Source: Polytrichum commune (lineage: Eukaryota; Streptophyta; Polytrichopsida; Polytrichales; Polytrichaceae). Taken from it: a stretch of DNA of 64,000 bases. A program made the translations under genes and the position numbers. Each line of letters opens with the position of its first letter. The stretch's first letter is position 1. The notes below the pieces were generated by a model that was not told the origin of the DNA, did no database searches, and saw only the letters and a program-made list of their open reading frames with translations. Positions 6,329 through 55,845 of this stretch are shown piece after piece. Where the stretch lies: NCBI GenBank assembly GCA_950295325.1, contig OX485804.1, positions 20,706,001 to 20,770,000 of the forward strand, given 5' to 3'.

Positions 6329-6535
6329 GGTGATTCTTCACCTGAACTACCTTGACCTTTGTAATTACAAGACCTGGCAAACAATGCCCTTAAGTATACG
6401 ATGATTCCTCATCTGAGCTACCTTGACCTTTGTAATTACAATACCTGGCAAACAATGCCCTCAAGTATACGATGATTCTTCATCTGAGCTACCTTGACCT
6501 TTGTAATTACAATACCTGGCAACAATGTCCTCGTC
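6329..6535 (-). repeat. 71-bp tandem repeat, three copies, in gene 1 3' UTR
   Basis: Units start at 6329, 6400 and 6471; the first two are exactly 71 bp and the third is cut at about 6535. All contain CCTTGACCTTTGTAATTAC. The array lies in the region transcribed downstream of gene 1. In gene 2 the corresponding 3' region (about 55690-55820) has two more diverged units, for example GTAATTACAAAAGTGAAGCT. The array therefore arose before or soon after the gene duplication and gained a unit here. Confidence 0.85.
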
Positions 6536-6727
6536 GCGGCCTGCCTCCGACTGACCTCAATTTTTGAGGTTCAAATTCGGAGTTGGTTAAGTACACCTCT
6601 ATTTGGCTACAATCTACAGTCTAGCCGAACCTGGCACGGAGCCCACCTCATTATATTACATAATCTGCCCAGCCAGGAGACCCACGGAGACAGCAAAATT
6701 TGTTGGAATGAAATTCCAGTTCTCAAA

Positions 6728-9334
6728 TCAGAGTCCCAAGTAGCCCTTGAATCCCATAGCAGCAGGAATAGCAGCCGAGGGCTGTACAGGTTGAATAAGA
6801 TTCATAATGTTTGTCGAGACAGCAACCACTCCAGTAAATGTTGCTAAAACGATCATCACCACTGCTACATACTTGTCTTTCTTGGAACCCAAGAGGGGCT
6901 TGTCCCTGGATTACAACAATTCGGTACACGTGAGATCGGAGACTCGAAGATAATGCATACTACATTATACTTCCATTAAACTACTCTAATCTTGCTATCC
7001 AGAAAATTAGTCTAAACCTCCAACCCTCCATCAAGTTGCAATTAGGGTTTATCTCGGGAGTTGCAATTCAAATTCAGCCTAAACAAACTTCTCAAAATTT
7101 GTGGAATGGAACTTACTTGAGCAAGATGAGGGCCGGGAAGATGAATCCGAGGCACATTGTGGCCGTTGCACCGGTGAATTGGAACGCCACCCAGATGTTG
7201 GGGACCAATGTGGAGCCAACGAACACGCCGCATGTCAAAAGGCAGGTGAGGAGCAAGAAGCGAAGAGTATCGTGAGCAAGAGGGGCGGCATTCGGGAACA
7301 GGAAAGAGTCGAGATTGAGGCGGAGCGAAAAGTTCAAGAGAGGGAACACCAGCATGATGTGCACTGCGTAGCTGATGCGCACTATCATGCAGATTGTGTG
7401 CGAGAAAGGAACCCCGAGGTCGGTGTCGAAGTTGGACAAGATGTCGTCACTGATGGCATCTCCAAACAGAAGGTAGCCGAAGGTGGCCGTGCAGAGGTAG
7501 ATGGCTCCACAGACACTCATTGACCATCGCACTACACGTTGCATCTTCTCCTCGGATGAGAACTCGATGCTCCCTTGAAGCTCATTTGCAATCGGATGCA
7601 CTGTCATCAAGAAACGCAACATCCATAATCCATCAGTAAAGCTTCAAACTCTGAACGACATGTTGGTCATGTTATTCGGAAACAGACTCCTGATAGCTCC
7701 TATCATGGTGAGGTAATTAGATTGGAATACTCAAGGGCAATGATGCAAGCGAAACGGAAAACGGGGAGACGAGTAGGAACTTACCATTGTGATGGCAAAT
7801 GTAGGCAGTCATCATCACGGGAATGGCAGTGAAAAGACCCCCAATCGACTTTAGGTCGTACACTTTCGGCGTAAGCCTGGGCCAGTTGATTTCTCCAGCG
7901 ACCAATTTCCACAATGTCACGGCCACGACAATCACCACAAACACCACCGCTAGAGCGACTGCCAAGGCAGAGGTCCATTTCAACGAATCTGGCATTCAAC
8001 AAGGACAGAAATGTATTAGATCCTGCGTCGCAAGAGCATTGCAATGAAGGAATATTCGGCTTCTACTGCTCAGACTACCAAGGCCAAATTCTCTGGCAGA
8101 ATCGGTAGGAAGGACAATTTCACAGTTAAGCATCCATACCGAGATGTCGTAACGAGACGAGGGGAAGCAGGATAACGGCAGTGATGGTGAAGAGGACGAA
8201 TAAGCGTTCATTCCACCAAGTCGGTCCTCCTGCCAATTCTTCCAGGACACCAGTAAAATGCTGCCCTGCTCCGGAGGTTGATCCTGACAGCACGTCACCT
8301 GGCACCAACAAAGGAAGGTTTCTCTCATTTTAGTACACACACTCAAACAAGATGTTGTGAATCGAGAGTAGACGAAGAAACGGACATGCAGAGACAGTTC
8401 ATTCTGGAGGCGCATTTTCCTCATCTACCACAGAAATCAAGCCTAGAGTTGAGGACTACTTGCGTGAAAGACTCCTATAAAAGAATTCAATGCATTCGGA
8501 TGGAGCGAAGGCAAGGGATGACTAAATATTTGTAATTCTATAACCGGGAAAAGGAGTCTGCAACATCTGCTTCGAACCTACAATTTCCTCCCTGCGCGCC
8601 AATTCCCTTAATTCCATAAATGCATAAATTCATGAAAGCTTGTATACACCTTGCAAACCACAACATGCTCAGCTTTTCGTGTGGTCCTACCGACTGCTAG
8701 AAGCGGGGACGAGATGCTACTACTGAATCATTCTCCCAATGATCAGCGCAAGGACATACGAGCTAATAAAGCAGACACAATTGGTACATTTAGAGAACGA
8801 AACTCTCCAGGCAGGCAGTCCCGCACTACGTGCAAGCCTGTCGATCATTCTCCTAACCGCAGCGTAAAGCTAGAGAGAACTCAGAAATTGACAAAGTGGC
8901 AGAGAGTGAGTACCTATGATGATGAGGTACACGATGAGGATTCCGAAATTGGCGACGATGATGCAGAGCTGCACCGAAGCGCGGCCGACCTCGCCATACG
9001 CGGAGCCCATCAAATCACTGTAAGACTTCGCTCCCGACGGCCTTGAGTAGCGCAACAGAACTCGGATGGAACTCTCGCTCAGAATCCCCACAACTATGAT
9101 GAGGAGGATGCCCAAGGGCAAGCCCAACACCTTCATGGTGGCAGGGAGTGCCATGATGCCAGCCCCAACGATGGTGGTGGACAGGTTGAACACTCCACTC
9201 GTCATCGTGGCCTCCTGGTAATCATCGTAAACCTCCTCCACAAGGTCTTGTGTCTTACTGGGCAGAAGAGGCGTCCGCTCGGTTTGGACGTAAACCATAT
9301 CCTTCGTCCCTGCTTTCTTCTGTGACATCGCCAT
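6728..9334 (-). CDS. AVT6-like: AVT6-like vacuolar amino acid transporter (gene 1)
   Basis: Membrane carrier of the amino acid/auxin permease family (Aa_trans, SLC38-like). Plant AVT6 proteins export amino acids from the vacuole. Exons: 9334-8914, 8298-8140, 7988-7785, 7600-7117 and 6905-6728, all with GT-AG introns (615, 151, 184 and 211 bp), giving 481 codons plus TGA. The start is the first ATG; a second ATG lies two codons on. A soluble N-terminus (TERTPLLPSKTQDLVEE) precedes the family block VFNLSTTIVGAGIMALPATM at about residues 48-67, then about eleven membrane segments, with GDVLSG at about 141 and NFDTDLGVP in exon 4. Compared with gene 2, the DLxSFWxLFTVIP stretch in exon 3 reads DLKSIGGLFTAIP, so this copy has changed usually conserved positions. 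No disabling lesion is seen. Family membership is sure; substrate and membrane are inferred. Confidence 0.92.
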
Positions 9335-9770
9335 TTTTACTCTAACAGTAGAGAATGCAGAGTTGGATGCAAATCCAGACAGAAATTCGTCGGAGATAGC
9401 CTACGTTTAGCCCATGGAGTTCGAAATCGTAGCCTGACAATTCTGCTAATATCAATCCGGTAACCCCTCTACAACGGTGGGGGTCGATTATCCTGTAAGA
9501 TGTTTTGGCCAAGGATCTTCTTCCGCAACCTTCAAAGTCACTGACTCCAGCGCCGAATAAGCACAATTTGAAAGTTGTGTGGACTCAAAGACACGAATTC
9601 TCCAAAATGCACTGGCGAATGTCGTGGTGGAACTTGAAGGTGGGAGTATGAAACAACCGATCGAACAAGACTGCAATGGTGTACTAATTGAAGCAGGGGA
9701 AGCAAAGTTCCTCTTCTTCCACGGACTCCAGACTTCCCAAACAAGGAGATGGAGGCACCCTTATATGCTT
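9335..9770 (-). promoter_or_regulatory. Likely 5' UTR and core promoter of gene 1
   Basis: Read on the minus strand, CATATAAGGG at 9767-9758 is a plausible TATA box about 425 bp before the ATG at 9334. The implied leader starts near 9735 and has no recognisable coding content. A stronger TATATAAAG also faces this way at about 11774-11762 and could mark a distal start with a spliced leader. Transcript ends would be needed to choose between them. Confidence 0.35.
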
Positions 9771-12575: not shown

Positions 12576-13099
12576 GGGCCATATTTCACCTGGAGGCTAG
12601 GCCGATTCCCCTTGAGGCCGATTGCATGAAATTCGGCCCCCTTTGAGTTGGAGGCCGGCCTCAACTACACATTATAATAAGATTATAATGGGGGCTAATT
12701 TTCTCATATGTAAAGGCCTTAGGACCAAGAAGCTAGGCCGATTTAATAAATCTAGCATAATCCAACAGATCTAGCATAGAGCTTTTCATATTTCCACATA
12801 ATCCAATGAAATTGGTTCGCTGAAAAAATCACACTTTATTAAAAACAAGTTTTTTTTATTGAAATTTGACAGTGGCCCTAAGGCCAAGAATTGGCCCTTC
12901 ATTTTGGGTGCACCCAATTCAACGAGCTCAGGCCATGTCAGACTATGCATTTTTTATTAAAAACTTCATACCACCAAATCGGCCCGGCCTCTAGGTGTAA
13001 AGGGGTTAGGGCCAATTTCAACCTTTTGACCAATCACAAGTGAAGATTACAAGCCTCATACACAACGAATTGACCCGGCCTCTAGGTATAAAGCAACCC
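12576..13099. mobile_element. MITE family F1, copy A
   Basis: 524-bp element flanked by TAA on both sides. It matches copies B (26756-27291) and C (31632-32170) in reverse orientation, including the internal ACATTATAATAAG and the TIR-proximal GAGGCCGG motifs. Its termini are more worn than those of B and C (GGGCCATATTTCACC; AAGCAACCC). No coding sequence. Confidence 0.85.
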
Positions 13100-13471
13100 T
13101 AAATATGATATTTAGTGTCATGTGGTATTTTATGTCACAATGGTATTTTTCCAGATGACACTTCTTATGAATGATTGAGCAAATATTGTCATGGATGATG
13201 GATGGGTTCCTCCGTTGGCCAAACCCCTACCTACTCTTGTTAGCAATTTGTAATGAAATATTGTCATGGATGATTGCAATTTGGATGGAAAATCACTTGG
13301 TTAGTGACAGTAATTGCAACACTGTAAATCTATAATCCCCACAAACATTTACAAGGGATGACAAGTAATGTTGGATTAAAGTTTAGTGTTGGTGACAATG
13401 CACCACGGTTTACAATTAGTATTGAGCAAGAAATTAGAATTGGTGACACTAAATATCATACTTAGTGTAGC

Positions 13472-24424: not shown

Positions 24425-26755
24425 TGATGTCTTATCCATCCTTACATGTTTGGGCAACCACAAAGTGGTCGATGCATGGTCAAAGGACCAAATCATCAAG
24501 TGTCAAACCTATGTTGGAGATATTCCTTCCACAAGATGTTTAAGTTAATTTACGATGCATCTTTTGACCGTTGGGATTGAGCAAAGGATTTAATTTGTAG
24601 ATTCTACACCGTTGAAAAACAATGTGAATTTAAGTGCCTAAAATGCAAACCAAGTTCTAGGGATGCTTCAGTCATGGTGTTTCTTGTAACTTTTTTCCTT
24701 TACAACTTCTTACCTACGCATGAATACATACTTTCTCTACCACCATTGAAAATTTAGATGAGATTTTATGCTTATAGTGTATTTATTTTCAATTTTATAT
24801 TTTTACATGCAAATTATAACATAACAGATACAAAGATGGTTCAATCATGTTGAGATTTTGGTTATAGCTTGAAAATATGTTTGCCCACTTATGTAGCATT
24901 ATGCTTTAGGATTATGCTCCTTTAGTGAAAAAAATGATCACTCATATGCTTTGCTTTGACTTTTTGGAAATAGGCCCATGCATTCTCGAAGCAATCTTGT
25001 TGTGGTGTTGAAGGCCAAGGTAAATGTGTCTTAAATGGTTAGTTTTTGTTGTTTGTCATGATTCTCACCTTGGATTTAAGAGGTAGGGTGCTTGCAACTT
25101 AGATTTGTAAATGTGACAAGAGGTTTTAGCCACAATTATATATATATATCATTCGTCTCGTGGCTATTAATTTTTCAAAGTCAAAATTGTTGGAGCCATA
25201 AAAAAATTTCTAGACCTCGCCATTCTTGAGGATTTCAAGCATTGACTACTAACCCAATAATGGTTAATAATTCTTGAACATGTAGTCCAATGTCTTCTCA
25301 ACACTTGTCTTTTGGTATCCATTCTCATATTCACAACTAACTACAAAACCACTAAAAAAATAAATGACGAATTAAGATAAGTGATTGAATTAGGCACATT
25401 GATCCTAGAGGTCCAAGTTTGGGTTTTATCTTTTGATTTTTGTTAAGGTCATAGTGTAAGGAGCACGGGGAGGTCACTGGCGAAAATCATAGAAACAACA
25501 TGCAATAAAAATAGGGTCTAATATATTTATTGTAGGTAAATTTTGCAAAAAAACGTACATATAATACAGGGGGTTTAAAAATAATGAAACATGTTTACAT
25601 GTAAAATACCATCACATATAATGGCCTCTTTAATCTAGTCAGTACATGTAAGATAACATGGAAACGATTATTAGGGGTAGCGGGTCTAGGGTAGGGTTTG
25701 TGTTGAAAATGCTTGGATGGATGACTTCGCACGCTGGTTTGCTTGAATGTTTACTAAACCAACGGTTCCAATGTGGAGTTAATGATATCTACCCACTTGT
25801 TGGGAGGGAAAAATTCGGCGCTTTCTTTGACTTTATTTCACAGTCTAAAACAATGCTTCAGTTGCATGCCTTTGCCTTAGGTTTATTGTTTTGATTTAGT
25901 TCATGTGAGTTTACCATTGTGGCTGAACTTCACAATTCATGGTTGTAAGAAGAGAAATGTCCTTCATGAAAAAAATGGTCGCTTACAAAACCAAAAAAAA
26001 TGGGGTGTACAAAATAAAATGCGTTTTAAGAAAAAAATTGGACAACATTTGGGCTCCGAGAAGAAAAAAATTGGGATAAAGTCAAAAAAATGGTAACTTG
26101 GAATATAAGAGAAAAAAATGTAGTATAAATAAAATAGGATATTTTTAAATGATTCCAGCATAAAAATTATAATGATTGATAGGGTGTATTAAAATACAAG
26201 CATTTACCTTTATTTTGAAAATATCATACCTTATAATCTTTTTTGCAAGGTAAATAGCCCCCCGATAAATAGGTCCTGAGCGCACATGTATGCATTAATT
26301 AAAGAGGGAGTGACGTCCCCGTGTTAAGGAGTCCCCCTTGGTGGTTGTACATTATTATATCTTGCAATCGACTTGTCAATTTGTAACCCCCAAAAAATAT
26401 TTTATATATATACATATATATATATATAAACCAAAATTGAACAAAGAAAACATTTATTGGGAGTTTCATTAAATTATTTTTTTAAAAGGTGGCAGGTGGC
26501 CCCGAAATGAAAGGACCACACACGTACACATTTCTTCTTCGTTTTTAGCACAAATTGAAACACATGCACACAATTCAATAGTAGACATTGCTTTATTTAT
26601 GCACAACAAGTCTTTTACACATGAAAAGCTCCAAAACCTCTTCTGCACTAATATCCCTCAAACCCCTCATTGGAATGTTACATGCGTACGTGTGAGGTGG
26701 TTGTAGAGGCTAGGTTGTCACCATTGCTAAAGGGATTGATCGCACCAGCCACTTA
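24425..26755. other. AT-rich intergenic region
   Basis: No gene recognised. 25960-26100 is purine-rich with A tracts, and a TA-rich tract lies at about 26403-26429. Confidence 0.4.
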
Positions 26756-27291
26756 AGGCCGCTTTACACCTAGAGGCCGGGCCAATTCGTTGTGTAAGAG
26801 GCTTGAAATCCTCACTTGTGATTGGCCAAAAGGCTGAAATCGGCCCCAACCCTTTACACCTAGAGGCCTGGCCAATTTGGTGGTATGATTTTTTAATCAA
26901 AAAATGTATGGTCTGACACAGCCCGAGCTCGTTGAATTGGGTGCACCCAAAATGGAGGGCCAATTCTTGGCCTAAGGACCAATGTCACATTTCAATCAAT
27001 CAATAAATAAGTAACTTTTTAAATAAAATTTGATTTTTTAGTGAACTATATTCATTAGATTATGTGGAAATATGAACGGTTCTATGTTAGATTATGTTAG
27101 ATCCGTTGGATTATGCTAGATTTATTGAATTGGCCTAGCTTCTTGGCCCTATTACATATGGAAAAATTGACCCCCATTATAATCTTATTATAATGTGTAG
27201 TTGAGACCGGCCTCCAAACCCAAAAGGGGTTGAAATTTCATGCAATCAACCTCAAGGGGAATTGGCCCAGCCTCTAGATGTAAAGCGGCCC
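26756..27291. mobile_element. MITE family F1, copy B
   Basis: 536 bp, flanked by TTA at 26753-26755 and 27292-27294. Termini AGGCCGCTTTACACCTAGAG and TAAAGCGGCCC. Same orientation as copy C. The open frames on both strands are MITE sequence, not genes. Confidence 0.9.
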
Positions 27292-27399
27292 TTACGGCAC
27301 CATCCGTCAGCATATCCAACTGCAATAGTGTGAAAAGTGAGGGGCCAACATCTATTTTTGAACACAATCCCCAACAATTCCACAATCGCATGTGTTGCC

Positions 27400-28942
27400 T
27401 TGCCCCATGTAGACGGAGTCGGACCTTGGATTGCTACATCCAGAAGAAGAAACGCTGACCATGTGGATTGCTAAATCCAGAAGAGAAACTTCGGTCTCCG
27501 TTAGGAGGCTGTCGTAAATGAAGTTTATGTTCGTTCCACCCCTAGACCTATGTCCACTGGACAAAGGAATAGAGGTATAGAACTACTTCCCCCTTTCGAG
27601 AGTAGACACTGTAGTCACAAGTAACCAATAACAGATAGAACCAGTACCCAATAAGGATTGGTTAGTCTTGGATTTGTTTGGTGCAAGGTTTTAACTCTTG
27701 GTGTTTTAGATTCTGGTGAGTGTGTTTGCTTAAGTATTGGGAGTGTGATGTTTATGTCACCTAGCAGTCCGTCTTTCGCGTGGCAGGGGGAATTGTGCCC
27801 GTTGCCGATATATACTAATGTGGTTTTAATTATTATATTATATTATTTCTTTGTTGACTAGGGGGGTCTTGTAATTGAGGTAGAGGTTGATTATTTTCTA
27901 ATCTTCTTTTGTGGAGGAGGATGGACATGGCATATTGTATGGCAATGGTATTTATGTTTTTAAAGGTGTTTCGAATGGCTGACATAGGTAGTTTGAATTT
28001 GTCTCCAAGTATTTTCATTGATGGGGTGTGTGTTGCAGCTCTAGCGCCTGCCGTAATAACGATGATCGGGTCAATTTTCCAGCCTCTAGCGGCTATATTT
28101 TCTATTAAGGGTCTATATTTGTTTGCTTTAGCTTCGAGTGTTTCCGGTGAGAATCTATCGTTACAGTAATATGTGAATTCAATGAATTGTATGATAAGAT
28201 TTTGGTCAATATTTGTGGGTGGTTCGTTTTGGTATGGCAACCCTTTAACGCAGAGGATGTCGGGTCTAAATCGGGCGTTACAATGGCATCTTTGGGTTCC
28301 ACATGTACATGGTAATAGCCAGTTAGGGATGGTGTTTTCTTGGGGGTTGTTATTGAATGTACCAACATTCATGAGAGTGTAACATCTGGATTTTTCGGAC
28401 GATATTAGCATTTTTCTTATTTCCCATACAACTTTGTTATGTCTTTTAACGTGAAGTGAGTGTATATGTTGTTGTCTACATGTAAGTAGTACGTGTAGCC
28501 ACGTGTCTGGTTCATATGAGTTGCAGATAGGACAAGTAATGGTAGGGTATCTTTGCCTGCCAAAGAAGAGTTGTTTTCTGGCGTGGCCCATGTAAGTTCC
28601 CGTACGAAATTTGATGAGGCAGGATTTTTGTTTGTTTGTAATATTAGGGTTGTTCTAGAATTCATTGGAGAGTTCTTTGTCGATGTTTTCACTTCCTGTC
28701 CATTTATAGATATTAGGGTGTGTGTGGCCATAGGTTCTGGGTTTTTTATTCTATCGTATTTTATAATTTGTTTTTTTAGGAATCTAACGGGGCCTTTGTC
28801 TAGTGTGTCTATCATGGAGGGCCATTCGTCTTTTTGATAGTAGTATGGTATAGCGTGGGCATGTTCGAATGGATGTGTAGCGTTTTCGTGAGGTAGGCCT
28901 AGGCCTTCTTTTGCTAGTTTATCCGCTTGTTCGTTACCTTGC
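27400..28942 (-). mobile_element. LINE B, 5'-truncated non-LTR retrotransposon
   Basis: Minus-strand LINE that begins abruptly inside the RNase H domain at about 28940 and runs through zinc and nuclease-like domains to a 3' UTR ending near 27400. A 3' piece recurs at about 57490-57660 (shared CCACTGGACAA, CCCCTTTC, GACACT-like blocks), supporting the 3' UTR call. 5' truncation is typical of target-primed reverse transcription. Confidence 0.7.
27833..28940 (-). pseudogene. LINE B C-terminal polyprotein: RNase H tail, CCHC zinc motif, PD-(D/E)xK-like nuclease
   Basis: The frame starts GNEQADKLAKEG (about 28932-28895), the last RNase H motif with its catalytic Asp. It continues past WPSMIDTLDKGPVRFLKKQI, then shifts frame near 28590-28640 into a clean 252-residue stretch ending at 27833. 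That stretch has C-x2-C-x9-H-x4-C (CPIC...H...C), a second cluster C-x-C-x4-C-x-C (CTCGTQRCHC), then RPDILCVKG, and 27 residues later FIEFTYYCNDRF. The RPD...E spacing suggests a PD-(D/E)xK fold with Thr where Lys is usual. In non-LTR elements such a nuclease nicks the target DNA. The long intact frame suggests fairly recent insertion. Reverse transcriptase is missing; I could not assign the clade. Confidence 0.7.
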
Positions 28943-30659
28943 TAAATCCACATCAATTGCTCCACCAACTCTTTCAATAAACATGCCCTTTGCGATGCCC
29001 TACACAACATCCTCGCGCAACCAAGCCTCTTCCATATCCGCATCCTTGGAATCTTCATCCAAACCACAATTATCATGAAGCACACAATCGACCTCCCTCT
29101 CTTCCTCACAATGCTTATGAGTGATTTGTTGAGACTTGAACATCTCATGTTTGTCGTTCTTGAAACCGTATCAAAGAAGACATTGGAGACATCTTCCATG
29201 TCTATGTCATGCATGTTTCTAGTTGGGTTTTTGCTATCACTTAAACTAACCCAAGGAAAACAACCTAGGGTACAAGGTCCCAAGGAAGATTGAGCTAGTG
29301 TTTGTAAGGATTTGTGTTCATGTTCCACCTTTACTAGGTCATTGCCCTTCTTGAGCTTACTGATTCTTCATCTTAGGCTTCTCAACTAACTCCCTTTGGT
29401 TTTCAAAGGCTATCGCCCCTCCCATGCAATTGTTCTTCACTCCCTTTCATAGGTTGAGTGAATTGATTCGAGTACTTATTGCCAACAACATGTCTCATGG
29501 ATTTTGTGGCTTCGAGCAACACTTCCTATGTGTTTTCTTTCTCTCATGCCTTCCATCAAACCTAATTTATTCAAGTAGACTTTCTCTTGGCTCCCCCAAA
29601 TCTTAATCCTCATCCATCTGACTCACTTGCTACTTCCTCTCCAACTATTGTTCCTATGACATCTTCCTCTGTCACATCATTACTTAACACTTCATCTTCA
29701 CACACACTTGTCTTCCTCTTCTTCATTCAATCTTTCTACTCCTTGGCCTATCGCTCAAGGTTTCCTCACTTACTTTCATTCTTAATTCGGCCTTCCACTT
29801 TAATTTCAATCTAATTACGCTCAAGCTATCTTCCTCATGATCATTCTCTCAATCACACCCTCATCCAACTTACATTCTTTCTCAACAATCCTCTTCTCAA
29901 AAGGCTATTGCCAAATCTTTATCAACTGCATTAACTTTGGCTCTTCTAGCCTTCAACCAACTTATTCGTTCTCTTGATACATTGATTCCTCAAACATGGC
30001 CATCAATCAATATGTCACTTATACAAGATAATTGCCCATCACACCCATTCACTGCGATTATTAGAGTTGTCAATAAGTTTTAGAGTTTGAATAGGTAGAT
30101 TTTGTCTACCTAATTCTCATGTCCTCAAGCACATCACTTGGGACTAGCCTAACATTTATGCACCCAAGCTCTCTCTCTCAAAGTTTTAGTGAAACAAAAA
30201 CCCTATTGCTTCTACACCGAGACTATGCCAGATTTCAACACATGCAAATGGTTTGCTTCTTCATTGGTCAACCTTCTCCTTATTGAGTCATGAAGAAGGA
30301 GAAGGTGGTTACAAGCAATAACCAACTTATCACGGCAACAACCTTTTGATCCTACTATGGATGAAATTCTAACTACCAAACACTAGATGAAAGCCACCAA
30401 AAGCTGAAAATTGCCCATTTCAGCTGGGCTATGGCCAAAAAAACAGATTATGGGGTTCATCGTGATCTTCTATATGGATGCATATCTCCTAACATCCATC
30501 TCCGTGGATCTTATGGGAATAACCCACGTTGGATTAAGATAGAATTGATCACTCTTACAGATGTGAAACAAAATGCCCAAGAAGAGTAACACCCAAGTGC
30601 TTCTTCATACGAAAACAAGCCCATTGATGAGCCATGTAACATGGGCCACTATTGGTACA
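28943..30659. other. Pyrimidine-rich region, unassigned
   Basis: Composition changes sharply at the LINE B truncation point. The plus strand is C/T-rich with Ser/Leu/Thr-rich open stretches (29587-29960) that could be decayed retrotransposon gag, but no motif is convincing. Confidence 0.35.
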
Positions 30660-30877
30660 TGTTGGACTAGAAGTAAGATAACAATAGTCTAGAATGAGTT
30701 TAAAGTAAAAGCATAGAGTTTATTATAATTGAACTTGCTTTTACTTCAGTTAAACTTAAGGCAACCGAGCATGGTGAGGAGGTATATAAAGGGCTCTTTC
30801 GCAAGAGTAAGATCTTTTTATCTTACCTCGTGGTTGGGTGGTTCATGCCAAAGAAACTTCCAACAAGGAATTAGAGT
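30660..30877 (+). mobile_element. Copia-like LTR with primer-binding site, truncated element
   Basis: Starts TGTTGGAC (30660) and ends TTCCAACA (30865), giving the TG...CA inverted ends of an LTR, 206 bp. TATATAAA at 30783-30790 is a well-placed TATA box, followed by a GTAAGAT/ATCTTAC hairpin at about 30808-30828 near the expected poly(A) region. Directly after it, GGAATTAGAG resembles the methionine-tRNA primer site GGTATCAGAG (8 of 10). Internal genes are absent: Rep-like sequence begins within about 15 bp. The 5-bp flanks (GTACA and AGGAA) do not match, so it is not a clean solo LTR. Confidence 0.5.
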
Positions 30878-30885
30878 TTTGTTAC

Positions 30886-31458
30886 AAGCTATTTGCAATA
30901 TGCTACTATGGGAAAAACTCACACCGTTGTTCAAACCCACCTTGCCGAACTTTGTGTACTCCAATTTCCCCTCTTTCATGTCATTTGCGGAGACATTGTA
31001 ATGCACGAACTCAAAATGCTTCTCCCCATTGTCCTTCGTGCAATAGCCAATCATAACTTTGAAGGCATGCAAACCCTCATTTCTCAACCTCTTCCATGAA
31101 CCTACATGACCAGTTGGAGGACTTGCATCCCATCCCAAACAAACCTTAATTTTTTGCTCAAGACCAAAAGACTACTAAAATTGCCTTTCACAATCAGTTC
31201 AGAATGCTTGTGGGCCAATGCACCACCCCATTCCATGGAGCACAATCCCGACATACATTCCTCCTCGATGAATTTACTCAAATTGACAAAGAGTCCAATG
31301 TCAATATCAAATCCATCCATGGCAATTGCCATGGACACCTTGAAGTACTTCAACAATGAACGGGTTTGCTCTTGATCTTGCGAGCATGCAAGTGCACGCA
31401 TGCGAGGAGCCATGGCATATATGTGGGACTTGTATGAATTGGACAAATCATACAACAT
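30886..31458 (-). pseudogene. Rep/HUH-endonuclease-like gene remnant
   Basis: Minus-strand gene fragment. From its N-terminal side it shows MDGFDIDIGLFV, CSMEWGGALAHKHSELIVKG and, in the next frame, a stretch with SPPTGHV, MIGYCTKDNGEKHFEFVHYN and EGKLEYTKFGKVGLNN. His-Lys-His (31212-31204) sits where Rep proteins keep the metal-binding HUH pair, and Tyr-Cys-Thr-Lys (31045-31034) fits the YxxK catalytic motif. Such enzymes nick one DNA strand to start rolling-circle replication in plasmids, CRESS viruses and HUH transposons. The frame breaks within a run of six T at 31150-31155 (plus strand). The end next to 30886 abuts the LTR. A helicase domain is not visible. HUH assignment rests on two motifs and general resemblance, so it is tentative; replitron-type transposon is my preferred reading. 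Confidence 0.5.
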
Positions 31459-31631
31459 GCACTAGAATGGAGGCATGCACCAAAATGCTCTCCTATCATG
31501 CAAAATGAAAACCCCCTAGCAATTGGCGTAATTGCCAATGTTTTTAACACCGAAAACCACCACAATAAACTGACATCGCGTCAAGGCACTTGCCCATAAG
31601 TTTAGACAAATGTTTCCTACACACCAAGTTA

Positions 31632-32170
31632 GGGCCGCTTTATATCTAGAGGCCGGGCGAATTCGTTGTGCAAGAGGCTTGAAATCCTCACTTGTGATTG
31701 GCCAAAAGGCTGAAATCGGCCCCAACCCCTTTACACCTAGAGGCCGGGCCGATTTGGTGGTATGATTATTTTAATCACAAAATGCATGATATGACACAAC
31801 CCGAGCTCGTTGAATTGGGTGCACCCAAAATGGAGGGCCAATTCTTGGCCTCAGAGCCAATGTCACATTTCAATAGAAAAACTTCTTTTAATAAAATATG
31901 ATTTTTTTAGCAAACTAGATCCATTGGATTATGTGGAAATATGAACGGCTCTATGCTAGATTATGCTAGATCCGTTGGATTATGCTAGATTTATTGAATC
32001 AACCTAGCTTCTTGACCCTAAGGCCTTTACATATGGGAAAATTGCCCCCCATTATAATCTTGTTATAATGTGTAGTTGAGGGCGGCCTCCAACCCAAAAG
32101 GGGCTGAAATTTCATGCAATCGGCCCCAAGGGGAATTGGCCCGGCCTCTAGGTGTAATGTAAAGCGGCCC
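31632..32170. mobile_element. MITE family F1, copy C
   Basis: 539 bp, flanked by TTA at 31629-31631 and 32171-32173. Termini GGGCCGCTTTATATCTAGAG and GTAAAGCGGCCC. It lies about 170 bp upstream (minus-strand sense) of the Rep-like fragment and may have broken that gene. Confidence 0.92.
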
Positions 32171-32173
32171 TTA

Positions 32174-33791
32174 ATTGCCCATCACCCAAGTTGGGAACCT
32201 ATGAATGCAAGCCAAGTGGCACCTATGAATGCACCTCAAACTCTAAAAAATGAAACTCCCTTCCCCGCTGGCCAATCCATGGTTTTACTTTTTAATTTAT
32301 GCCAGGTTGGCGCCCCTAGCGAATGTACTTTAACAAGTCCCACATATCCACCAAATAACATGTAAAGGATGGCCTACATATATGCTACAAGCTCACGCCT
32401 AGTTGATTTGAATGTGGATAAATTACAATTGATATTGCTATTAAAACAATGTAAATTGGTGTTACATATCCATAACAACATTCAACCCTATGGTTGAGCT
32501 TCAGTTTTATATTAAGCATTCGACAAGGGCCTCCATTGTCTTACCTTCATGGAAAGAAATTGACGTTGGTACAGTGACGAACAAAATTGAGAACTCAATT
32601 GAGAACTTCAATTTCGGCAAGCAATCTCTGGCGATTGAAATTTGATATCATTGAAGTAATCAAGCAAAGTATGTGTACAAAGTAGTCTTCTTCATGTCTG
32701 TAAAAAAATAAATTTAAAACAAAAATATCTACATTGTTTGTAATGGCTTGTCGAAGTTGGCTTCTTCAACAAAGTACTCAGTTTCGTTCATCATTGTACG
32801 AATAGCCTGAATATTATGGATGGTTTTGGTATTTTTAGTATATATTGTTATTGTAGATAATAATTTCAGTGAATAATATCGGGATGAACAATGATTCATG
32901 TGTATAGTGTTGGGAATAAAAGTCCACCAAATTTCCAAATTCAACTTAAATGTATGAACATTAGCCAAATACCGCTACAATATTCAGGGGGAGGGGCACA
33001 TAATATAATTGTTTTCTTCCAAGGTTAATGGAACTAACTCATCTGACCAAATATTGTCATGCCGTGTGGGCATTGGTCCATTCTATATACATAGACATAT
33101 TTGTCAGTACTCGCACCTTGAACCCACTAAAACCATGCAAAGGTGCCATGCTTTTGTGTTTGAAGGGGGATTTGTATTAATTTTGAATAGAGCTTATCTA
33201 GGGTAGCAATGTAATGCTAGGTGTTTGACGTGTGGTTTTTTCTTACGTGCTTCCCCTTTTTTTAGTGAGCATATGCCTAGTACCTTGCCACAAAAAAAAC
33301 TATTTTTTTTGCAAAATACCTCAAAGTGCTTCTTCTACATCATGTTCGTTTTGCACAAACTAACTTTTCACATTGTTGATCAACTTCTCATTCCAAAAGA
33401 CACCAAAATCTCTTCTAACTCTTGCTTATTTGGATGCGGTGACCGTTTAAAATTCAACTACTCTTCGTTTCAATTTTTGATATTTTATTTCTCATCTCTT
33501 GGACTTAAGAAATGAAAGTGAACTCTTTGAGTTTGCCTTCTCAAGATCTCTCATTTGCGACCTTACCTAAAACAAAGAAGTGAAGTAGTGGAAACATTTT
33601 GAGTGGTCAAGCTTTGAGCATTGTTAGTGGACCCATCAATTGATGAATGAATTCTCCCCGGGATTCATTAGATGGATGTATCATATGTATTCGGCACATG
33701 CTTGACAAGTAAGTTCGTTTAACTAATGACATACGTAGGGTTAAAACATGGATTGGTTCAAACAAAATTTGCGGCACATATCTAACAATTA
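32174..33791. other. Unassigned
   Basis: No gene or repeat partner recognised. Confidence 0.4.
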
Positions 33792-39719: not shown

Positions 39720-40746
39720 CAGTCTAACCTTGATAATGTCACCCTTGTTAATAGAACACCTTGATATTGTCACCTAAAAGTTTGAAACAGATTTTCATAG
39801 TGTAAAACTCCCTCGTTATTATCCCTATCACCCTTGATAATGTCATTATTTTTTTTTCAAAATCCGTAGTGTAAATGTGATAATATCAAGTATGGATGGA
39901 TTGTATGGGTGGGCATGGGTTCGATATTATTGTTTATGGGTGAGCATGGGCTAAAGCAAAGCATATTGGGGGTCATTGAATGAGCTCTCATTCAATGCTT
40001 TCAGCATAGTGGGATGCCTTGTGTAATTTCAAATTTGGTACGTGTTTCGGAGTCCAAATGCTCAATTCTACATACTCGCAGTTGTCTGTAAGTTGAGGCC
40101 AAAGGTGGAAGTTCACAAACACACAGATCTTTGCCATGGCCAATGCAACTCCAACTCCATCTGCATCTCCACTTTCTCCATGCAGATAATAACACTTTAT
40201 TCCATGTCGAGTTTTGAAATTTTGCAACCACCCATGAGAAAGCTTGAACTCGGTATCAGATATGCCAAATGAATCCCTCAATTCCTTAGCCTTTTGCATA
40301 ATGACATCATCAGTTACTACTCCCCTCCGTGCTCTGACCTGTCCAAACCATAAAACCAAAGCTTTTTCAAGCTAAGGCCATTTTCCAACTCGAGCGCGTC
40401 GTACATTGCCTTCACGCACACATGTATCCATGTTCATCCACTTCTCTTTTGAACGAAGAATCTTGGAAATAGTGGTCCGATCCACAAGCTTGAATTTATG
40501 TTGATCCACCATATAATGTGCAAGGTCTTGTTGTTATTCACAATTTTGAATTAGATTTTACATTCAAAAACATTGAAGTCTCGTATTTGTTATTTAAAAA
40601 AAAATTGTAATTATATTTTGATTTTCTACATATTTCTTGATAATATCACATTATGCACAAAATGTGACATTATCAAGTATGTCACACCTTGTTTATATCA
40701 CACTTTTTGGTGAAATGGAGGGTGTGACATTATCAAGGTTAGGGTG
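39720..40746. mobile_element. pogo-type (Tc1/mariner) transposon, internally deleted
   Basis: 1027 bp flanked by TA (39718-39719, 40747-40748). The left terminus CAGTCTAACCTTGATAATGT and the right terminus TTATCAAGGTTAGGGTG are inverted repeats. CAGT at the tip and a TA target are typical of pogo. The core motif CTTGATAATGTCAC and close variants recur near both ends (39752, 39829, 39877, 40640, 40660, 40716), probably transposase-binding sites. Only the DNA-binding half of a transposase is inside. Confidence 0.85.
39988..40556 (-). pseudogene. pogo/Tigger-like transposase N-terminus (CENP-B-type HTH), no DDE domain
   Basis: Minus-strand frame from about 40556: QQDLAHYMVDQHKF and LVDRTTISKILRSKEKW form a CENP-B-like N-terminal helix-turn-helix. 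LVLWFGQVRARRGVVTDD, DVIMQKAKELRDSFG and LSHGWLQNFKTRHGIK form the second one (Tc5/CENP-B type). These bind the terminal repeats. Stops at 40536-40534 (TAA, from CAA) and 40374-40372 (TAG, from CAG) are both C-to-T. After GESGDADGVGVALA no family sequence is clear, and the catalytic DDE region is missing. The family transposase has about twice this coding length plus the catalytic domain. Confidence 0.75.
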
Positions 40747-51885: not shown

Positions 51886-53024
51886 ATTCGACGATAGCCG
51901 TATTGGACGGTGTCAGACTTTACTTATTACATCCTCGGAGAGCTTTTCGGTGAAGTGGGATCCACTTGCCCGGAAGCTGAGCGAGAAGACTGCAAGTGTT
52001 GGAAGCTGGGGCGATTCTGTGCGAGTGACTGTTCAATGGTTTGACTCGGTTAATTAAAAGCCACCTTGTGTTCATTGTGGCCGGCATATAATGGGGGCGC
52101 CTCCCTTTCCTGGTTCTTGGAGAGAAGAATTGGAAGAGTGTCTGGTCATGTGGAGGTTGCACGCCGGGAGGAATTAAGTTAGTTGCTTGCACGCCATCGC
52201 CTGCCTGCCTGCCTGCCTTCTTCTATTTGCAGACATCTTGAGCCCACCTCCAAGGTTACCGGAGTTGCTGGAGGTGTGACTTCCTGCCACAGTCTCAGAT
52301 TCATGCTCAGATTTTAACCCTTCTTGTTGCCTAATCTTCAAGTTCAGTCCGCCACCCCAACTCCTGTTTTCCTCCAATTTCAAGCAGGCGTTCGACTATG
52401 TCCTTGAGTTGCACTCAGCTCTGCATTTGCAAGTGTTCACACCGTGGGTCACTTTGAAGGCCAAACTCAAATCTGAGTGCATTTCCTCTTCCTCTTCTCT
52501 GGCTTGTGTTTGTTTATACTTGTGTGCTTGACAAGTTACCTCTTAGAAACTTAAGCTTCTTGCTTAACCTCCAAGCGGGGGAAGCGTTTATCTGTAGCGT
52601 CTTTCTTCCCTCTTGGCAAGAAACCCCATCTCGCTTCGATTCTCTCACTGCAGCAACCCCCCATACCAGATTGTGCCACAACCATCTCCAAAACCTTACC
52701 TTTGTCACTAGCAGAAGAAGAAGAAGAAGAAGAAGAAGAAGAAGAAGATTTGGTCCTCTAACAAAACCCAAAACTGGTACGCACCTCTCGTCTTCCTGCT
52801 GACAGCCACTGGCAATTCAAGATCTATCCCAACATTTGCAACATCACCATCTCATAACAGGCTCAGAGTGTTTGTTTAGGAGGGTTGAGCTTCATGGGCT
52901 GAAGGTTGCAATCAGTTTTTGGACTTGAATTGCCACTTTTTGTTTTTAGAAGAATTTTGCTCTGTGTTCATCCCCGGGGGTCCTTGCCAATCTGAAAACC
53001 CAACCGGAAGGCCGAGAAAAGAAT
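51886..53024 (+). promoter_or_regulatory. Upstream region and likely 5' UTR of gene 2
   Basis: Low in transposon signatures. An (AGA)n tract of about 12 units lies at 52713-52748, 277 bp before the ATG, on the sense strand; a GCCTGCCT run lies at about 52199-52217. No convincing TATA box. The two transporter genes share little sequence here, so their promoters differ. Confidence 0.4.
52713..52748 (+). repeat. (AGA)n trinucleotide repeat in likely 5' leader of gene 2
   Basis: About 12 perfect AGA/GAA units; gene 1 has no equivalent. Confidence 0.95.
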
Positions 53025-55500
53025 ATGGCAGCAACATCATCCAAGAGAGCTGGGGTTAAGGAAGTCTACGCCCACACCGAGAGGACACCTCTTCTGCCCA
53101 GTAAGACACAAGACCTTGTGGAGGAGGTTTACGATGATTACCACGAGGCGTCGGTGCCCAGCGGCGTGTTCAATCTGTCGACCACCATCGTTGGGGCCGG
53201 CATCATGGCACTCCCTGCCACCATGAAGGTGTTGGGCTTGCCCTTGGGCATCCTCCTCATCATAGTTGTTGGGATTCTGAGTGAGAGTTCCATTCGAGTT
53301 CTGTTGCGCTACTCACGGCCGTCGGGAGCGAAGTCTTACAGTGACTTGATGGGCTCCGCATATGGCGAGGTCGGCCGCGCTATGGTGCAGCTTTGCATCA
53401 TTGTCAACAACCTCGGCATCCTCATCGTGTACCTTATCATCATAGGTACTCACTCTCTTTCTAAAGCCCCTGACTTTTACAATTTAGGGTTGAGTTTTGT
53501 GTGATACGAAATGTAGGAAGGTCCGCACCTAATTTGAACCAGCTTCTGCACGTATTTTCTTTGCCTGGTTCAGCTTTGCAAGGTGGTGGTAGAATCAAGG
53601 AAATGGGCTTGCAGGAGGGAAATTGTAGCTTCGAAACAAATGTTGCAGACGCCTTTCCGGTTTTAGAAATCTAAATGTTTAGTTACACTTTGCCTTCGCT
53701 CCATCCATCCATCCCAGTGCATTCAAGAGAAGGAGTCTGTCCAACAAATAGTTCTCACCTCTAGGCTTGATTTCTGTGGTATGGAGAAACTGCGCCTTTA
53801 TAATAAACTGCCTGTGCGTATCCCTTCTTTTCGGCTACTCTCCATTCGCAACAGTTCAATCAAGATGTCTGGGTTGAGTAGAGTACTAAATGCGAGAAAC
53901 CTTCCTTTGTTGGTGTCAGGTGACGTCTTGTCAGGATCAACCTCCGGAGCAGGGCAGCATTTTACTGGTGTCCTGGAAGAATGGGCAGGCGGACCCGCTT
54001 GGTGGAACGAGCGATTATTTGTGCTCTTCACTATCACTTCCGTTATCCTGCTTCCCCTCGTCTCATTACGACATCTCGGTATGTATGCTTAACTGTGATA
54101 GTCTCCTTCCTACCGATTCTGCCTGAGAATTTAGCCGTGGTGGTCTGAGCAGTAGAAGCTAAATTATCCTTCATAGCAATGCTCTTGTGATGCAGGATAT
54201 AATACGTTTCTGTTCTTGTTGAATGCCAGATTCATTGAAATGGACCTCCGCATTGTCAGTCGCTCTAGCGGTGGTGTTTGTGGTGATTGTCGTGGCTGTG
54301 ACATTGTGGAAACTGGTGGCTGGACAAATCAATTGGCCAAGGCTGATGCCGGATGTCAGCGACTTAGCCTCATTTTGGCGTCTTTTCACTGTCATTCCTA
54401 TTATGATGACTGCCTATATTTGCCATCACAATGGTAAGTACTTCTCTCCGTGTGTCCTAGTTTTCTTCCCCTTGCCTTATACACGCCATAAACTAAGAGG
54501 ACACCCAATTCTCCTCACCATGATGGCCACTTAGCACTGCACTCAGAACTGCAATGTGACCCACCCGTGTCCAAAAGCTCAGATCCTGTTCATGCTTTGC
54601 TGATGGTGTGTGGTGGTTGGATTTCTTGGCGACAGTGCACCCTATCGCGAATGAGCTCGAGGGAAATGCAGAATCAGCCGAGGAGAAGATGCAACGTGTG
54701 GTGCGATGGTCAATGACTCTCTGTGGGATTATCTACCTCTGCACTGCCACATTCGGTTACCTTCTGTTTGGGGATTCAATCAGTGACGATATCTTGTCCA
54801 ACTTTGACACTGACCTCGGGGTGCCATTCTCGCATACAATCTGTATCATTGTCCGCATCAGCTATGCAGTGCACATTATGTTGGTGTTCCCTCTCTTGAA
54901 CTTTTCACTTCGTCTCAACCTCGACTCTTTCCTGTTCCCAAATGCTGCCCCTATTGCACACGATACGATGCGGTTCTCGACCCTCACCTGCCTGTTGACA
55001 AGCTGTGTGTTCATTGGGTCAGCATTGGTTCCCAACATCTGGGTTGCATTCCAGTTCACCGGTGCAACGGCCACAGTGTGCCTTGGATTCATCTTCCCAG
55101 CCCTCATCTTGCTCAAGTAAGTTCTATCCAATCTTAAGACTCTGCCTTCTATTATTGAAGAATGTATTGCAATACCTGAGGGGGAATGGTTGGGTCTACA
55201 GGCTACTTTTTGTAGATAACAAGATTGGATCAGCTAAATGAAGAAGACTGTAGGAATTTTCTATATTCCTGTATGAATTTCCTGGTCTAATGTAGATTTT
55301 ATGCTTTGTTGGTTTCCAGGGACAAGCCCCTATTGGCTTCCAAGACGGACAAGTATGTGGCAGTGGTGATGATCATTCTGGCAATTTTTACTAGCGTGGT
55401 TGCTGTCTCGACAAACATATTCAATCTTATTCAACCTGTTGAACCCTCAGCAACCACTCCTGCTGCTTCCGGTTTCACAGGTTATTATTTAGGACTCTAG
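53025..55500 (+). CDS. AVT6-like: AVT6-like vacuolar amino acid transporter (gene 2)
   Basis: Paralogue of gene 1 and the better match to the family. Exons: 53025-53445, 53920-54078, 54230-54433, 54636-55116 and 55320-55500, with GT-AG introns of 474, 151, 202 and 203 bp; 481 codons and TAG. Intron phases equal those of gene 1, and intron 2 is the same length and nearly the same sequence. The protein has a soluble N-terminus (about 1-44), the VFNLSTTIVGAGIMALPATM block in the first membrane segment, GDVLSG at about 141, DLASFWRLFTVIP before the sixth segment, FGYLLFGDSISDD and NFDTDLGVP between segments seven and eight, and RLNLDSFLFP after the eighth. AVT6 carriers move amino acids out of the vacuole. 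Substrate is not deducible here. No lesion seen. Confidence 0.95.
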
Positions 55501-55845
55501 ATTGTGAGTTGAATCAATTAGTCACTCAGATAATTGGCCTTCCAATGAATCTGCTGTATTGGCAGATTGTGTAATTTTAACGAGGCTGGCTCAGTGGCAG
55601 ATTGGGCTAGACTGTACCCCAAAGCAGAACTGTACATAATTAACTCCAAGCACGAACCTCTCAATTGGAGGTCTATTGGAGTTTGACTACATCAAGGACG
55701 CTGTAATTACAAAAGTGAAGCTAGTTCAGTAGAATCATGTACTCTAGGGCATTGTTGCAAGAATTTGTAACTCTAATAGTGGAGGTAGTGGAGACCAAAA
55801 ATCATCATGCTCTTGTAAACATGCACATGTCATGAGATGTGCAAA
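55501..55845 (+). other. Gene 2 3' UTR, homologous to that of gene 1
   Basis: GCAGATTGTGTAATTTTAAC, GGCTAGACTGTA and CTCTTGTAAACATGCACATG have counterparts downstream of gene 1. Two diverged units of the 71-bp repeat lie at about 55690-55820. Confidence 0.7.

Follow-up and report, generated by a model that had tools for sequence, protein, structure and literature searches.

A dead replitron copy, split by nested insertions, in the nuclear genome of a plant, most likely a moss

In our study, an HUH-endonuclease remnant lying in a 64,000-nucleotide stretch of plant DNA (hereafter the window) has been identified as what is left of an autonomous replitron, old and dead, in the nuclear DNA of a plant, most likely a moss, and we put the probability of this identification at about 0.95. 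It is called a replitron because its nuclease domain matches the Pfam family Replitron_HUH (PF21859), a sibling copy in the same genome (L016) also carries the Replitron_C domain, and the ends of the element are common to the siblings. A sequence-only reading of this DNA had preferred a replitron-like HUH transposon without a helicase, and this preference is borne out by the same evidence. The element is of a known, though only recently described, kind of transposon, of which it is a good example, and not a new kind.

The ends of the element were mapped by comparison of 26 sibling copies. The remnant had been placed at 30886..31458, but the element extends far beyond this interval, its 5' end lying near 32348 and its 3' end near 26455 on the minus strand. 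Its parts and the later inserts are as follows.

26455..32348, minus strand: whole replitron copy including later inserts, about 5.9 kb, with edges exact to a few bases at best (5' end from the sibling alignment, 3' end from a model with the window excluded)
32249..32350, minus strand: G-rich 5' subterminal block with the outer edge GATATGTGGGAC (model and alignments)
31629..32173, minus strand: MITE in the 5' untranslated region with TAA on both sides (flanks read by eye); copies at 26753-27294 (88%) and 12583-13102 (86%)
31411..31413, minus strand: likely start codon (MAPRMR...), in a column that the 27 aligned copies conserve
31144..31413, minus strand: first frame piece of the HUH domain, with HxH at 31204-31212; L016 residues 4-69 match 31341-31144
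30893..31162, minus strand: second frame piece of the HUH domain, with GYCTKD; L016 residues 64-153
30635..30886, minus strand: solo-LTR-like insert of 252 bp, TGTAACA...TGTTACA, with TG...CA ends and the flanks TAGCT and TGGCT
30452..30629, minus strand: start of the C-terminal part in two frames; L016 residues 156-173 and 172-214, E=1.5e-14
29209..30451, no strand assigned: insert of about 1.24 kb with no assigned type, flanked by the matches to L016 residues 214 and 216
28942..29208, minus strand: further C-terminal part; L016 residues 216-237 against 29208-29143, and an alignment of 24 copies
27479..28938, minus strand: LINE-like insert between two GGATTTAGCAA copies (an 11-bp repeat at 28939-28949 and 27468-27478)
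26753..27294, minus strand: second MITE of the same family near the 3' end, from its likeness to the 31629-32173 copy
26453..26732, minus strand: 3' part with the end of the reading frame, an AATAAA-type signal and the terminal CTCCCAATA (model built without the window)

The two peptides on which the sequence-only reading was built are present on the minus strand, in two overlapping frames. EWGGALAHKH has its histidine codons at 31210-31212 and 31204-31206, and GYCTKD has its tyrosine codon at 31043-31045 and its lysine codon at 31034-31036. The frames meet at the A-run 31150-31155, which had been taken as the only break in the core, but the gene is broken at other points also. On separate examination of the two pieces in Pfam, the second frame (117 aa, 30818-31171) was found to match Replitron_HUH with E=2.7e-10 and 41.1 bits, the curated cut-off being 28.5 bits, whereas the piece with HxH matched no Pfam family, either whole or as a 28-aa part. 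When both frames were bridged with X at the break, the match extended over profile positions 6-127 of 128 with 51.3 bits (E=1.9e-13). None of the ten controls (the piece in reverse and nine shuffles made by computer) matched Replitron_HUH; a hand-scrambled decoy which retained real peptide stretches scored 17.8 bits, below the cut-off, and computed shuffles were used instead. Moreover, the degenerate pattern GYCxKDxGxxHF has a single occurrence in the window, and none of 100 shuffles contains it.

The HxH and YxxK motifs occupy columns which are scored by the Replitron_HUH family. Replacement by alanine in the bridged sequence lowered the PF21859 score by 2.4 bits at the first histidine, 5.5 bits at the second, 7.2 bits at both together, 6.1 bits at the tyrosine and 4.3 bits at the lysine, and the changes at a control tyrosine, histidine and lysine were +0.6, -0.1 and -1.2 bits. 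Loss of these positions in homologues had been named as the observation that would speak against a Rep-type nuclease, and the outcome favours the reading: in the alignment of the window copy with 26 siblings (27 copies, the query L016 being counted) the two histidines are kept in 22/27 and 23/27, the tyrosine in 22/26 and the lysine in 20/27, usually in the forms GGALTHKHFQ and GYCMKDNGEEHFE. When the 262 columns are ranked by plain conservation, however, these four residues take places 61, 34, 38 and 103, so that they are not conspicuous in the decayed copies, some of which are out of frame there.

Downstream of the nuclease domain, five segments of L016 (residues 4-69, 64-153, 156-173, 172-214 and 216-237) align to the window in order, the last with E=0.008 on its own but in order with the preceding matches. 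The C-terminal pieces resemble replitron sequences. They align with L016 residues 156-237, of which residues 174-227 are PF21860 (Replitron_C, E=1.6e-8); the 30-aa and 32-aa window pieces have no Pfam match when taken alone, and the window is absent from the 32 places found by a PF21860 profile search of the genome. In agreement with the sequence-only reading, no helicase was found: no helicase family was matched in Pfam by the ORFs of the element that were scanned, not every small ORF being included.

Both ends of the copy are located by comparison with its siblings. A model of eight other copies, with the window excluded, found 32249-32311 at the 5' side (E=5e-4), and the extension 32312-32350 (to about 32348) rests on alignment and on a model including the window. 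At the 3' side, a model of nine other copies, again excluding the window, found 26732-26453 with E=1.6e-20 as its sole match in the window. By subtraction of the inserts, the window copy is about 1.8 kb long, and in one sibling, L033, the two ends lie about 1.7 kb apart. At a constant offset, AATA is found in 8 of the 11 5' ends that were mapped and in 10 of the 16 such 3' ends, often as CAATA, weaker end matches being omitted at 3 of 14 loci for the 5' end and at 4 of 20 loci for the 3' end; its background is 0.6% per position, and the end models contain AATA columns, which helps the fit. The window copy has GATA at its 5' end and AATA at its 3' end, and no inverted terminal repeat was seen by eye. 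AATA may belong to the element as a terminal repeat, arise by duplication of the target or reflect a preference in target choice.

The window covers positions 20706001-20770000 of contig C2 in an assembly of 407.8 Mb and 64 contigs, and seven contigs of 42-78 Mb together make up about 406 Mb of it. Seven chromosomes may agree with Polytrichaceae. On a separate contig of 146,561 bp (C8), apparently the plastid genome, psaA and psaB are both intact. The PsaA of C8 scores 1724 bits against 8htu, 1704 against 6l35, 1698 against 9lut and 1651 against the next chain, and with PsaB the order is unchanged. The entry 6l35 figures in a paper whose title concerns photosystem I of Physcomitrella (PMC7884438), and 8htu would be from this moss too. 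With moss chains giving the highest scores for both proteins, a host among the seed plants was set aside, although the library searched probably contains few chains of non-seed plants. A PF21859 profile search of the genome gave 74 places at E<=0.001, 71 of which pass the cut-off, two of them only together with neighbours, and both PF21859 and PF21860 were found in 0 of 14 control genomes. With the 573-base window DNA as the query, at least 41 places including itself were found, a lower bound with 40 of 113 DNA candidates scored; the other 40 places are 70-78% identical, one of them over only 101 bases. The 3' end of the window copy finds only itself and one other place when used as the genome query, and it is therefore no guide to copy number. 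The sibling set was composed of the 20 best of the 74 PF21859 places and six places chosen by DNA likeness, four of these six being also among the 74. In the 20 best-scoring copies no single open frame over the whole protein was found (introns were not modelled), and neither an intact copy nor movement was seen; the longest frame listed among them is the 289 aa of L016, which matches Replitron_HUH at E=2e-15 and Replitron_C at E=1.6e-8. Codon positions 1, 2 and 3 differ by 0.314, 0.281 and 0.503 over all pairs and by 0.273, 0.221 and 0.473 for the window copy; the count was made on alignments to L016 guided by the protein, a procedure biased towards codon-like matches. The higher variability of third positions would be the mark of past selection on the protein.

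The single break in the core had led to the suggestion that the remnant is not ancient, and this part of the sequence-only reading is not supported. The copy is diverged from every other place found, its frame is broken several times and five insertions are nested in it, all of which speaks against a young age. The insertions are two MITEs, the solo-LTR-like insert, the insert of about 1.24 kb and the LINE-like stretch, which together split the element. The siblings L015, L022 and L031 align on either side of 30634-30891 with about 258 bp missing. The 1.24-kb insert has no other copy within the window. The LINE-like insert is so named on the likeness of its peptides to LINE peptides, and neither of its two ORFs matched a Pfam family. 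The MITE family has a third copy in the window at 12583-13102, and all three copies have TAA edges, two of them being inside the replitron.

Elsewhere in the window, a transmembrane amino acid transporter gene (Pfam Aa_trans) is present twice in opposite orientation, at 6400-9400 on the minus strand and at 52950-55806 on the plus strand, the DNA identity of the two copies being about 76-90%. At 39991-40371 on the minus strand lies a remnant containing a Tc5-type transposase DNA-binding domain (E=1.1e-14), and in the segment 16001-18000 the GC skew reaches -0.43, a strong local value not matched in the remaining window. Rfam and tRNA scans of the window found nothing.

The sequence-only reading had also offered an endogenised Rep, derived from a single-stranded DNA virus or plasmid, and Rep proteins do carry HxH and YxxK. 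The domain is returned by Pfam as Replitron_HUH only and matches no viral Rep family, the best E-value in PHROGs is 0.19, and phage records gave four matches at chance level (E 0.6-0.8). Two scans of viral contigs, reaching close relatives or one motif only, found no relative there. The dispersed siblings with common ends also argue against such an origin, which we consider very improbable. A Helitron fragment that has lost its helicase appears even less probable. Helitrons are HUH transposons of plants, as a review indicates, but neither a Helitron nor a helicase family is among the Pfam matches of the element ORFs scanned, and the ends of L033 are too close together for a helicase to be added.

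Another alternative is a host gene which was domesticated from a replitron and has decayed at this locus. The signs of past selection on the protein and the open frames of 168-289 aa retained in some siblings would agree with it, but transposon ends lie on both sides, the siblings are many and dispersed, and the 20 best-scoring copies contain no whole-protein single frame, introns not being modelled. Domestication is given hardly any weight, about as little as a viral or plasmid Rep, and a decayed replitron is the reading adopted here.

Database scans gave some further matches. A scan for relatives with back-translated peptides gave 2 pattern matches in viral contigs and 38 in genome contigs, none of which was confirmed, and a sequence search of the PDB returned one match, to a flagellar hook protein at E=0.27, which was rejected. 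The motif pattern scan gave 0 occurrences in viral contigs and one in genome contigs, on L001 (JAIXOF010000056.1), a contig of 5 kb deposited as part of a Cyanobium MAG. This contig encodes a replitron on its minus strand at about 1600-2500; one piece of 105 aa gives a PF21859 match at E=1.1e-18, and two pieces downstream resemble the C-terminal part of L016 (E=0.001 and 5e-9). Its interrupted frames suggest that it is a eukaryotic, perhaps algal, contaminant.

By analogy with the HUH class, in which one strand is nicked and the tyrosine becomes covalently joined to it, a possible mechanism can be outlined. The live element would be about 1.7-1.8 kb long and would encode one protein, in which the replitron C-terminal domain comes after the HUH nuclease domain and no helicase is included. 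The HxH histidines would hold a metal ion, and the tyrosine of GYCxKD would attack one strand at the end of the element and stay joined to it. The element would then move as single-stranded or replicating DNA to a new site, perhaps one holding AATA. Since no helicase was found in the ORFs scanned, the host would have to supply the factors for strand opening. It may further be speculated, though we rate it as rather unlikely, that the replitrons of mosses are a lineage of their own, with a nuclease that recognises the G-rich subterminal block and inserts at AATA, leaving AATA at both ends. If true, this would be a single-strand transposon of land plants that lacks a helicase and prefers particular sites, and its nicking site could be read from its ends.

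In comparison with the Reps of CRESS-DNA viruses and plasmids, the window domain has the same HUH motif plan but no match to such families. Helitrons are also eukaryotic transposons with an HUH nuclease, and in them a helicase is fused to the HUH domain. The window element differs from these in having neither a helicase nor a Helitron family match in the ORFs scanned, and in its ends. The original paper on replitrons is reportedly that of Craig (PNAS 2023), as the review has it. Likeness to replitrons is judged here by the Pfam models and the description in the review. According to the review, replitrons have already been reported from mosses, and they have direct terminal repeats of 5-11 bp without inverted repeats, target duplications of 2-8 bp and lengths of 0.9-4 kb. 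A moss replitron in this genome confirms the reported distribution and does not extend it. The window element shares with replitrons an HUH domain over nearly the whole profile with HxH and YxxK, the C-terminal domain (in the siblings), the lack of a helicase in the ORFs scanned, possibly a short direct repeat at the ends and, most likely, a non-seed plant host. Its length also lies within the range given in the review (L033 about 1.7 kb; the window copy about 1.8 kb after subtraction). On the other hand, the window copy is dead and split by inserts, and the putative end repeat of AATA to CAATA (4-5 bp) is at or below the 5-11 bp stated there. Our literature search, over a limited collection, found no report of moss replitron ends. 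This study has revealed a large and deeply diverged replitron set in one non-seed plant genome, and the mapped ends of the family are the prerequisite for testing the nicked sequence and the insertion site.
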